Shown here: piece by piece, positions 12,777-35,385 of the stretch | Layout of the letters: each line of letters opens with the position of its first letter | How positions within the stretch are numbered: the first letter of the stretch is position 1 | Source of the DNA: Kosmotoga olearia TBF 19.5.1 | GTDB taxonomy: Bacteria; Thermotogota; Thermotogae; Petrotogales; Kosmotogaceae | Reading direction: 5' to 3' | Assembly (NCBI RefSeq): GCF_000023325.1 | Contig: NC_012785.1 | Coordinates: 1,426,001 to 1,490,000 of the forward strand | Length of the DNA: 64,000 nucleotides | Notes under the pieces: generated by a model | Told to the model about the DNA's origin: nothing | Seen by the model: the letters and a program-made list of their open reading frames with translations, nothing else | Databases searched by the model: none | Made by a program: the position numbers and the translations under genes

Positions 12777-12922
12777 GAGAGTCCGAGAATTCGAGAGGGC
12801 CGCTACGCGGTGGAAGTGCTGAGCTGCGCTCAGGAGGCTCACGACGTTGACGCTCACGAGGTTGAGGCTTGCAGACGCTGATAAAAGCCGAGAATCCGAG
12901 ATCCGAGAATCCGAGAGTCCGA
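12777..12922. repeat. Repeat island 4, left part (interrupted by IS110)
   Basis: Contains GGCCGC-TAC-GCGGTG (12,798) and CTGAGC-TGC-GCTCAG (12,819), 21 bases apart, then CACGACGTTGACGCT / CACGAGGTTGAGGCT tandem copies and CCGAGAATCCGAG motifs. It ends at ...GAGAGTCCGA, where the IS110 element is inserted; the same repeat resumes at 14,433. A second GAGAGTCC-GA-GAA site lies at 12,777-12,789. No gene is present between the hup start and the transposase start. Confidence 0.8.
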
Positions 12923-12930
12923 TGTAGGAG

Positions 12931-12936
12931 TAAAAT
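12931..12936 (+). promoter_or_regulatory. -10 half of a junction promoter for the bridge RNA
   Basis: TAAAAT lies eight bases inside the left end. If the element is excised as a circle (right end - GA - left end), the TTGACA at 14,419-14,424 comes to lie exactly 18 bases upstream of it, giving a near-consensus sigma-70/A promoter directed into the left-end RNA. Published IS110 work (IS621) describes such a junction promoter. Here it is inferred from sequence. Confidence 0.7.
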
Positions 12937-12943
12937 AAAGGAG

Positions 12944-13095
12944 GCAGTCAGGAGGAAGAGAGGAACAGAGAGTCCATTCGCCATGAGAGCGACTGCTTCT
13001 CACACTCCCTCTTCCATCCTGGGAGTACTAGAGGATCAATAGTAGGATATCCGGGGAAACCCAGGAACGCTACATCGATTAACCTGTACTCATTG
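12944..13095 (+). ncRNA. Predicted bridge RNA of the IS110 element
   Basis: Two guide-bearing stem-loops lie between the left end and the transposase. Target loop: outer stem GGAAGAG (12,954-12,960) / CTCTTCC (13,009-13,015), apical stem TCGC / GCGA (12,978-12,992), left guide GAGAGTCC (12,968-12,975) identical to host DNA left of the GA core, right guide TTCTC (12,997-13,001) complementary to core plus right flank GAGAA. Donor loop: outer stem AGTAC-AGG-ATC (13,024-13,037, TAG bulge) / GAT-CCT-GTACT (13,077-13,090, TAA bulge), apical TCCGGG / CCC-A-GGA, left guide ATAGTAGG (13,039-13,046) identical to the right end at 14,424-14,431, right guide CTACATC (13,070-13,076) complementary to GATGTAG at 12,921-12,927. 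RNA ends are approximate. Confidence 0.85.
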
Positions 13096-13124
13096 ACTGC
13101 ACAATGTTTTTTGGAGGAATCAGT

Positions 13125-14417
13125 ATGGATGTTGTGGGAATTGACTGGTCGTGGAATTTTCACACCTGCTATTCTATCGAACAGGATAAGGTTTTTAAGA
13201 TCAAAGATGGTATAGCGGGGTATGAGAAGCTTCTGAAAACGGTATCAAAAGACGCTGTTTTCGTTATTGAGGAGAGTTTCAATCGTCTGGGAGATTTCTT
13301 GTTGTCCAGAGGGAAAGAGGTTTATCTCCTGCCACCGAAAAGGTCAAAGGAAGCCAGAGGCTATCATTCGAACGGCGTGAAGACAGATTCAACAGATGCC
13401 AGGTGTATCGCCCTTACCTACAAAGAACACCCGGAATATTGTATTAAGGCGACACATGACGAACTGGGTATGCTTTTCAGGGAATTGTTGAGGCATTACA
13501 GGTACTATACCGACATGGTTGCAAGACTTAAGAACAAACTTCAAAACGAACTTCATAATTATTTTCCTGAATATGCTAGGGTGATGGGTAGTTCTTGGAC
13601 AGATTGTGACGGGAAGATATTCCTGCTCACCATATGCCCGGATATAACCATGCTCAGGAAGATATCTGACAAGGAGATAAATAGACATTTCCAAGCGAAT
13701 CATCTACGCTACACATCCTCATTGAAAAGAAAGGTCAAAGAACTCAGGGAAAAAGCCGTTGATTGGGGCATGTCAAAATACACCAGGGACATGATCGCGA
13801 ATGTTGCCACACAACTTCTGGAAGCAAAAAGAGAGAAAAAGAAAATAACAAAAGAGATGGAGAAAGAACTACGTAAATCGAAATACAACATAATACTGAC
13901 GCTCCCGGGTGTTGGAGTAGCTACAGGAGTAGCATTAGTAACAGCATTTCTTACACACGAATTCAAAAATTACAGGGATTTCCAGAAGTATTGTGGAACT
14001 ATGCCAATAGTATCCCAGAGTGGTAATTTTAGCGTGTGCAGGATGAGGAAAAACTGTGACAAGAAACTCAGAGGCATTCTCCATATGATGGCGATAAACG
14101 CGAAGAAATGCGGAGCATGGATGAAAGGCTACTATGACAAGAAGATAAATAAAGAGGGCAAGAAACCATCTCTTGCCCTCAGAGCATTGGCAAACATCCT
14201 CGTCAAGATAGCCTTCGCCATGCTAAGAAACCTAAAAGCCTACGATGAGGAACTCTTCCTTTCCTCGCGTGGGAATAGGAGTCCTCGGTTAAATTATACA
14301 ACAAGAAATAGCATACCGGGGACTAAAAAAATGAAGAAAGAAAAGTTATCCCTGCCTGTCTCTGTTGCTCAAACCAACTGCCATTTGGGAGCAGTTTCAG
14401 GTAGTCTGTCTCCTTGA
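13125..14417 (+). CDS. IS110-family transposase (bridge-RNA-type recombinase)
   Basis: A 430-residue recombinase. The N-terminal RuvC-like DEDD domain shows GIDWSWNFH (first Asp), VFVIEES (Glu) and KTDSTDARCIA (last two Asp). A charged coiled region follows (about residues 110-260). The C-terminal Transposase_20 domain starts at ILTLPGVGVATGVALVTAF and contains CGTMPIVSQSGN, where IS110 proteins carry the nucleophilic serine. Length is normal and there is no frameshift. The ATG at 13,125 has GGAGG eight bases upstream and is preferred to an ATG seven codons earlier. The stop overlaps the base pairs of the right-end TTGACA. Predicted to work with the RNA encoded directly upstream. Confidence 0.95.
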   Translation: MDVVGIDWSWNFHTCYSIEQDKVFKIKDGIAGYEKLLKTVSKDAVFVIEESFNRLGDFLLSRGKEVYLLPPKRSKEARGYHSNGVKTDSTDARCIALTYKEHPEYCIKATHDELGMLFRELLRHYRYYTDMVARLKNKLQNELHNYFPEYARVMGSSWTDCDGKIFLLTICPDITMLRKISDKEINRHFQANHLRYTSSLKRKVKELREKAVDWGMSKYTRDMIANVATQLLEAKREKKKITKEMEKELRKSKYNIILTLPGVGVATGVALVTAFLTHEFKNYRDFQKYCGTMPIVSQSGNFSVCRMRKNCDKKLRGILHMMAINAKKCGAWMKGYYDKKINKEGKKPSLALRALANILVKIAFAMLRNLKAYDEELFLSSRGNRSPRLNYTTRNSIPGTKKMKKEKLSLPVSVAQTNCHLGAVSGSLSP

Positions 14418-14418
14418 C

Positions 14419-14432
14419 TTGACATAGTAGGT
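14419..14432 (+). promoter_or_regulatory. Right end of IS110 with -35 half of the junction promoter
   Basis: TTGACA (14,419-14,424) is a consensus -35 box just after the transposase stop; it has no -10 box downstream in the integrated state. The adjoining ATAGTAGG (14,424-14,431) is the left donor segment repeated in the donor loop of the predicted RNA. One base (T, 14,432) separates it from the GA core. Confidence 0.7.
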
Positions 14433-14898
14433 GAGAAAAAACATGACGCTTGCGACAAAAAAACACGAGAATCCGAGATCTGAGAACCGAGAGAGCTGCC
14501 TTTGCAGCGGGTAAGCACGCTTCGCGTGGCTACACTACGAAAGCAGGGATTCTCGAATTCTAGGGTCTCGGTTATTGATCGCGTCAGGAATAACGGTCTT
14601 TTGTCTGTGGGCTCTTATTTTAAGCAATGTCAACTGCGAAGCAGTTCGAAACAACTCCGAAGGAGTTCGTATCACCGGTGAAGCCGGTCGTAACAATCCC
14701 GAAGGGATTCGTATCCGCTGCAAAGCAGCCCTTTCGCTTTTTGATTTTTACGTACAACGCACAACGTACAACCAACAACGGGTTTTATCGCCGCGCAGCG
14801 GTTCGCGTCGCTCCATCAGCTGACAGCGTTGCAAGCCTCAGTTGTGCATTGGTTACCGGTTCTCGGATCTCGAACACCGGATCTCGGATTCTCGGTTT
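14433..14898. repeat. Repeat island 4/5: IS110 right flank and five-unit 21-base array
   Basis: After the resumed host repeat, the clearest array starts at 14,632 and continues at 14,653, 14,674, 14,695 and 14,716, an exact 21-base period: AACTGC-GAA-GCAGTT, AACTCC-GAA-GGAGTT, ACCGGT-GAA-GCCGGT, AATCCC-GAA-GGGATT, CGCTGC-AAA-GCAGCC. Linkers are CGAAAC, CGTATC or CGTAAC. Further right are GTACAAC direct repeats, a segment shared with island 7 (CAGCTGACAGCGTTGCAAGCC reads in the opposite sense there) and TCTCGGATCTCG motifs. Open frames here encode heptapeptide-like repeats (NSEGVRI, NPEGIRI) without ribosome binding sites, so I call no gene. Confidence 0.85.
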
Positions 14899-15729
14899 TT
14901 AAATCATCAATGAAAGAATTATCACCACTATACCGATGAGTTTGAAAGCGCCGATTTCTTCAGACAGGAATATGAAAGCGAGAAGAGTTGCAACCACCGG
15001 TTTGAGGTAAAACACTCTGCTTGCTGTTGAGGCTCCAATACGCTTGGCGGCGGCAAAAAATGTAAAGTATGCGATGCCGGTAACACCGATTCCAAGATAC
15101 AGAAGAATCAGCCAGCTCGAAAGATTTAGGGATGTAATTTTGAACTGGCCGAATAACATAAGGGTCGCTGAATACACAACACCGGAAAAAAAGGAAGAAT
15201 AGGCGGTTGCTGTCAGCGCCCCGTGTTTTAACACATGAGGTTTAAGCAATAGGGTGTAAAGTGCGAAAGATATGGCGGAACCTATTCCGAAGAGAAAACC
15301 AGTAATTGTGTCTCCTTCAAGCATGCCGCTGATAAAAATCAGTATTCCTACAAATCCAAGAAATGTCCCGATGAATTTCCTTTTTGAAGGTTTTTCAGAG
15401 CCAAAAAAGGGAGCAAAAATGGTTACAAACAAAGGGTTAGTGGCTATTAATGTAGCCGCGGTAGAGGCGTTTCCAAATTTAACAGATAACTGAAGAAAGG
15501 TCATAGATACAATTGTGTTCAATGAACCTATCATTGTGAGTAAAATGATTTCTCTTGGCGGGAGTTTTTTTTCAATGAGGGGCATTAAAAATAATCCTCC
15601 AATGAAGAAACGAAAAGCTGTCATAAAGAACGGATCGATTTGTCCCATAAGCGGTTTTGAGACGATTTCCATGCTGGAGAAGAAAAGGAGTGTTATAGCA
15701 AGATATAGGGTTGACAAAATAGACACCAT
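14899..15729 (-). CDS. EamA/DMT family permease
   Basis: 276 residues with about ten hydrophobic helices in two EamA halves. Half one includes DPFFMTAFRFFIGGLFLMPL and NPLFVTIFAPFFGSEKPSKRK, and half two includes GALTATAYSSFFSGVVYS and VFYLKPVVATLLAFIFLSEE, the usual second-half signature. Drug/metabolite transporters of this type export amino acids or other small metabolites; the substrate cannot be read from sequence. It lies alone between a repeat island and a divergent phosphatase gene. ATG at 15,729. Confidence 0.85.
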   Translation of the reverse strand: MVSILSTLYLAITLLFFSSMEIVSKPLMGQIDPFFMTAFRFFIGGLFLMPLIEKKLPPREIILLTMIGSLNTIVSMTFLQLSVKFGNASTAATLIATNPLFVTIFAPFFGSEKPSKRKFIGTFLGFVGILIFISGMLEGDTITGFLFGIGSAISFALYTLLLKPHVLKHGALTATAYSSFFSGVVYSATLMLFGQFKITSLNLSSWLILLYLGIGVTGIAYFTFFAAAKRIGASTASRVFYLKPVVATLLAFIFLSEEIGAFKLIGIVVIILSLMI

Positions 15730-34889: not shown

Positions 34890-35385
34890 CGTTGTAGGTT
34901 GTACGTAAAAATCGAGAACCGAGAGCCGATAGCTGCTGCGCAGCCGAGGCTTGCAACGCTGTCAGCTGGTAGAGCGACGCTTGCGAGGCTGAGGCTTGCT
35001 ACGCTGTCAAATAAAGTAACGCGAACCGCTGCACGATTCAAAAAACCGTCATTATGGAAATGTTTTATCGAGAATCTGGTCTTCTTAAGTACGAGATCCT
35101 GAATCAAGTTCAGGATGACAGTCCCTGTTTTCAAGGTGTGCTTACCGGTTCTCGGACTCTTGGTTTGGACTCTCGACTTTTTTCGAGTAACTTACAACTC
35201 ACAACCGACAACGTCCCTTACATCTGCCGCAGGCACGTATCACCAACGTAGTTGGTCGAGCAACTGCGCAGCAGTTCGCAGCAACCACGAAGTGGTTCGC
35301 AACAACTCCGCAGGAGTTCGCAACACTGGCGAATCCAGTCGTACCTGTTCTCGCCTTCTCGAATCTCGGATCTCGATTGGGGTTG
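34890..35385. repeat. Repeat island 8 with five-unit 21-base array
   Basis: The right part is an array at 35,242, 35,262, 35,283, 35,304 and 35,325: ACCAAC-GTA-GTTGGT, AACTGC-GCA-GCAGTT, AACCAC-GAA-GTGGTT, AACTCC-GCA-GGAGTT, ACTGGC-GAA-TCCAGT. The left part holds GAGGCTTGCAACGCTGTCAG-type modules shared with island 5 in reverse. The perfect inverted repeat ATCCTGAA-TCAAG-TTCAGGAT lies at 35,095-35,115. No gene is evident in 34,885-35,472. Confidence 0.85.

Follow-up and report, generated by a model that had tools for sequence, protein, structure and literature searches.

An IS110-group insertion sequence of Kosmotoga olearia with a predicted bridge RNA and target guides that vary among its copies

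An IS110-group element among abundant host repeats

The stretch of Kosmotoga olearia DNA analysed here (the window, 64,000 nucleotides) contains a segment that the initial annotation described as an IS110 element, a description borne out by its ends, its four copies, both Pfam IS110 domains in its protein and a fold match (Table 1). The four copies, the one in the window included, all have intact genes and lie in a single-contig genome of 2,302,126 bases (G000); each is bounded by GA-TGTAGGAG...ATAGTAGGT-GA (that is, GA-TGTAGG...AGTAGGT-GA), and outside these limits the sequences are divergent apart from the host repeats. The non-coding ends comprise 202 nt at the left, upstream of the gene, and about 15 nt at the right, which is the IS110-type layout and not the IS1111-type (downstream) one. 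GA is found at both junctions in all four copies and the host units read unit-GA-GA, consistent with insertion without target duplication. A TG core (the junctions read GATG and GTGA) was ruled out: 18 of the 19 host units in the window continue GAGA, which fixes the core as GA; the right target guide, the right donor guide and the left target guides of the sister copies, described below, end on GA; and the right-end length agrees with that of relatives.

The element had also been thought to be undescribed, and no paper naming it was found in a search limited to open-access journal articles. A plasmid collection searched with the element gave no match, and a scan of genome contigs for relatives yielded one relative only.

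Intergenic units of the GAGA type (GAGAACC, GAGAGTCC, GAGAATCC and GAGATCC, each followed by GAG) are very abundant, as can be seen in the window at 12,780-12,922 and 14,460-14,900. Repeat counts were obtained by pattern searches of the genome, which find GAGAN{1,3}CCGA in 575 places as against 142 for a reversed control; 92 of these places (about 16%) carry GAGAGTCCGA and 106 carry GAGAACCGA, the latter including three that are guides and three that are their targets. A left-end relic of 24 nt, L067 (G000:C1:2100927-2100950), lies at GAGATCC-GA in this genome, and is thus a hit in a third type of host unit. We also note small hairpins arrayed in tandem, one about every 21 bases, at 14,629-14,730, 35,220-35,340 and 1,060-1,140 of the window and at L067; the stem differs in each unit, and the loop and spacer are similar (AACTGCGAAGCAGTTCG, AACTCCGAAGGAGTTCG, AATCCCGAAGGGATTCG).

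Table 1. Features of the element copy in the window and of its insertion site
Feature	Position in window	Strand	Basis
Host repeat array, GAGAATCC-GAGATCC-GAGAATCC-GAGAGTCC-GA, target	12890..12922	+	Sequence; abundant in genome
Left core dinucleotide GA	12921..12922	+	Common to 4/4 copies; window host units read unit-GA-GA in 18/19
IS110-group element, 1,510 bp	12923..14432	+	Four genome copies, identical ends, flanks diverge at once
-10 box TAAAAT	12931..12936	+	Completes a predicted promoter only in circular form
Predicted bridge RNA body (158 nt): target loop, donor loop, closing stem GCAGUC/GACUGC	12943..13100	+	z -4.6; relatives share layout
Left target guide (LTG), GAGAGTCC+A	12968..12976 (GAGAGTCC, 12,968-12,975)	+	Sisters GAGAACC+GA; varies with flank between copies
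Target-loop inner hairpin (CGC...GCG)	12979..12991	+	Folding; both bases of alignment pair 37-60 change
Right target guide (RTG), TTCTC	12997..13001	+	Complements GAGAA at right junction; variable in relatives
Left donor guide (LDG), ATAGTAGG	13039..13046	+	Equals right end, 14,424-14,431
Right donor guide (RDG), CTACATC	13070..13076	+	Complements core plus left end, GATGTAG
IS110 recombinase, 430 aa	13125..14417	+	Pfam PF01548, PF02371; NF033542; IS621/ISCro4 matches; catalytic residues
-35 box TTGACA	14419..14424	+	Right end; 18 bp from -10 box across circle junction
Right core dinucleotide GA	14433..14434	+	4/4 copies; right-end length equals that of 39%-identical relatives

The recombinase

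The predicted protein matches PF01548 (DEDD RuvC-like N-terminal domain, E 1.4e-15) and PF02371 (Transposase_20 C-terminal domain, E 2.2e-16), and scores 171.6 bits against NF033542, the NCBI model for IS110 RNA-guided transposases, for which the cut-off is 140. By sequence, IS621 is the one relative with a solved structure (E 1.5e-8), and the predicted fold of the protein (pLDDT 80) has the ISCro4 and IS621 complexes as top matches (E 2e-13), followed by the RNA-guided TasR and by Nop5-type proteins. Residues D7, E49, D88, D91 and S299 correspond to the catalytic residues of IS621, so that the DEDD set and the serine are kept at all five positions, with D102, D105 and S241 of IS621 aligned after a two-residue numbering offset and D7 and E49 placed by motif, outside that alignment. 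In one relative that is otherwise intact (L012, G019:C20:203-1471) the presumed catalytic serine has become a glycine (QSGN to QGGN), and to judge from this change its recombinase is probably dead, and mobile only with help.

Predicted bridge RNA and circle-junction promoter

As the initial annotation proposed, the left end folds into two stem-loops (z about -4.6); segment 12,943-13,103 folds at -62 kcal/mol with a z-score of -4.57, and no shuffled sequence was equally stable. The putative guides occupy these two loops in the order LTG, RTG, LDG, RDG that is characteristic of a bridge RNA. Of the agreement with IS621 claimed earlier, the guide order and the two loops stand, whereas the outer architecture does not necessarily correspond, an extra stem here closing both loops. 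The fold is shared by three subfamilies, and covariation in RNAalifold is thin, with 2 of 34 pairs changing on both sides; support for the stems therefore comes from the unlike sequences of the three subfamilies that adopt similar folds. For example, the stem AGGAGGAAGAG/CUCUUCC.UCCU of the window copy and the stem GGAUGCAAGAU/AUCUUGCAUCC of L020 differ in sequence and fold alike. A search of Rfam returned nothing relevant, with one sub-threshold miRNA match on the opposite strand.

When the ends are joined they give TTGACA-18-TAAAAT, which has 11 of the 12 consensus letters and is the one such site in the 64-kb window; in the integrated element one box lies at each end. The joined ends of a 39%-identical relative give TTGACA-17-TAGAAT. 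Both arrangements form a predicted promoter across the circle junction, as reported for IS621 (PMC11208160) and ISEc21 (PMC11187229).

Guides of the window copy

The coordinates and letters of the guides as first annotated were all correct on re-checking, and all four guide matches lie where they had been placed. The RTG pairs with GAGAA of the right junction, the LDG is identical to the right end of the element, and the RDG complements GATGTAG. When the letters of the RNA were shuffled 100,000 times, the LDG 8-mer arose 243 times and the RDG 7-mer 847 times, and the two in order not once. The LDGs of homologues match their own, differing right ends, and in three subfamilies the donor guides change along with the ends.

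The LTG had been said to equal the DNA left of the core, and this holds as an identity of eight bases, but one that is a base out of register and without the core G. The guide reads GAGAGTCC followed by A, and the flank GAGAGTCC+GA, leaving the first core base unpaired with the LTG; in the strict IS621 register (seven bases plus two of the core) 2 of 9 positions agree, and a shift of one base gives eight consecutive matches. Two imperfections are therefore present where a single one had been claimed, namely the LDG mismatch one base before the core and the A that stands in the LTG instead of the core GA. Because about 16% of host repeat units fit the window LTG by chance, the eight-base match alone is weak evidence, and by its sequence the window copy is the weakest of the four for guide-flank agreement.

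The window copy therefore stands apart from its sisters, with a guide that either slipped and still works or has drifted. We lean towards a GAGAGTC-type guide, slipped by one base, having directed its insertion. L006, a copy in the related genome G019 (G019:C22), also has GAGAGTC in its guide, so this part of the window guide may be ancestral, and the C in place of the core G may be the window copy's own change. A counterpoint is that core pairing is strongly preferred in IS621 (PMC11208160), and the same register shift and missing core G, together with a sequence carried by so many host units that a chance match is not rare, also fit a different history, in which the element is as described but this copy was placed by a sister's RNA or some other guide, the GAGAGTCC match being a by-product of GAGA-richness in both the guide and the host repeat, or of subsequent drift. 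A precedent is provided by L006, whose left flank (GTGGTTCGA) is fitted at 8 of 9 positions, by eye, by the guide of its sister L062 (GTGTTTCGA) and at 6 of 9 by its own; action in trans, or guide drift after insertion, is possible there. On the window flank, however, sampled sister guides fit at most 4 of 9 positions in register (by eye) and eight consecutive matches come from the copy's own guide only, and we regard placement by another guide as conceivable but somewhat doubtful.

Covariation of guides and insertion sites

In the three sister copies GAGAACCGA is present in both guide and flank (GAGAACC+GA in each), matching at 9 of 9 positions in the IS621 register, seven plus two of the core, and the chance of three independent insertions all falling at GAGAACC units is about 0.6%. 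There are six variable sites in the left ends of the four copies, three of them within the LTG. The window copy differs from L002 and L003 at only five positions of the 202-nt left end, every one of them within the target loop (50, 51, 53, 56 and 63), and at 36-51 positions in the remainder of the element; between L002 and L003 themselves, the left ends show no difference and the rest of the element shows 32.

The suggestion that the loop segments of homologues should change with their insertion sites was also upheld: the guides track each copy's own flank, and variation within genomes is concentrated in them. For example, G019, whose protein is 65% identical, has three copies with three different left guides. 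In G024, with a 39%-identical relative, L023 has the guide GTCCTTG rather than GTCCTTC and the same change in its flank. Over four within-genome copy sets, 13 of 25 variable sites fall in target guides, which make up 7% of the length (p 2.9e-9 with sites, and likewise related copies, taken as independent). Among the 17 copies from five genomes with a readable guide and flank, the LTG fits its own flank better than under permutation within subfamilies (p 0.0014, or p 0.0023 without the window copy, related copies being counted as independent), and no significant covariation was seen within subfamilies between the RTG and the flank (p 0.26), although G024 copy L009 has GTCCCAT in both guide and flank, with two sisters having the guide GTCCCTA and flanks reading GTCCCTA or GTCCCTT. 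The table of guides and flanks behind the LTG and RTG tests was compiled from the sequences by hand, and two relics, L071 and L072, were excluded from the final permutation, as the guide ends in them may belong to the host.

Target recognition by protein alone, with the structured leader incidental to a site-specific insertion sequence, would explain why all four copies lie within one host repeat family, but it leaves unexplained the concentration of within-genome variation in the guides, the fit of guides to their own flanks, and nearest folds that belong to RNA-guided recombinases; we find it hardly credible. We consider it very probable that 12,923-14,432 is an autonomous IS110-group insertion sequence with a bridge RNA, and the guide sequences suggest that copies sharing a genome have started to target different variants of the host repeat.

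Left-end relics and guide diversification

Solitary left-end relics of 45-50 nt are present among relatives of the family (L072, L075, L076, L081, L082 and L083) and in G019 (L065); they stop at the LTG, where host repeat takes over, and in two others (L078 and L019) the sequence begins at the guides. RNA-guided mis-excision is disfavored as their origin, as the guide is followed by host repeat of the GAAAGAGC type and not by GCC(C), the start of the right flank of intact copies. In the intact elements L021-L023 the word at the relic breaks, GTCCTTCG, recurs about 20-30 bp past the right end, a pattern consistent with deletion across short direct repeats. To judge from these sequences, the guide seems to serve as one such repeat, through which the element is lost.

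Relic left ends in relatives are broken off at the LTG, so recombination between guide DNA and the repeats does seem to occur, and it could be argued that the likeness of left ends to flanks reflects nothing but sequence exchange between the two, by slippage or conversion, with no guiding role. Against this, the donor guides agree with the ends of the element itself, the RTG complements the flank and is no copy of it, and the same layout has been proven experimentally in IS621 and ISEc21 (PMC11208160, PMC11187229), and we judge exchange without guiding to be very unlikely. An RNA-guided element could also diversify its guides within one genome through exchange with the host repeats it targets, overwriting its own guide with neighbouring variants; the difference between the GAGAACCG and GAGAGTCC guides is of eight letters for eight, with the core base spoiled. 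This seems to us improbable, and if true it would be a natural route of self-reprogramming.

Discussion

Taking transcription, RNA binding and strand exchange by analogy with IS621 and ISEc21, we envisage that excision would join the ends of the element and form a sigma-70-like promoter, from which a bridge RNA of about 160 nt would be transcribed from the left end. Its donor loop would hold the joined ends and its target loop the host repeat, the LTG reading one unit plus the core GA and the RTG the start of the next unit, GAGAA; the recombinase would then recombine joined ends and host repeat at GA.

The element resembles IS621 of the IS110 group in E. coli (PMC11208160, PMC11208158) in its DEDD plus serine recombinase, its predicted upstream bridge RNA with a target loop followed by a donor loop, its 9-nt LTG that includes the dinucleotide core, its predicted circle-junction promoter and its use of abundant host repeats as targets (REP in IS621). 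It differs in having GA and not CT as the core, in the stem GCAGUC/GACUGC that closes both loops, and in its recombinase, which exceeds that of IS621 by about 100 residues, has a low-confidence tail and shows about 18-19% identity over the structural alignment. The best fold match is ISCro4 (solved synaptic complex 9t56), with a TM-score of 0.71 by target length and 18% sequence identity. ISEc21 and its redirected relative ISMch6 (PMC11187229) share the upstream RNA, the circle-junction promoter and natural redirection through changed guide bases; they are, however, separate insertion sequences with 72% identical proteins, ISMch6 being known from one copy (PMC11187229), whereas here guide variants coexist among copies that are 96-97% identical in one genome.

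Bridge RNA elements and guide-target covariation across orthologues have already been published (PMC11208160), as has one natural redirection, that of ISMch6 (PMC11187229). The kind of system is thus already known, and natural retargeting within single genomes is the mildly surprising part. We know of no description of guides turning over between near-identical copies within a genome, or of relics that break at the guide.

The element extends bridge RNA elements to a bacterium of the Thermotogota and to a family of host repeats whose units come in several variants. If the host is a thermophile, as is likely, the recombinase could also be of interest to genome engineers. With different guides in nearly identical copies of one genome, this family offers a natural case for how IS110 elements gain new targets.
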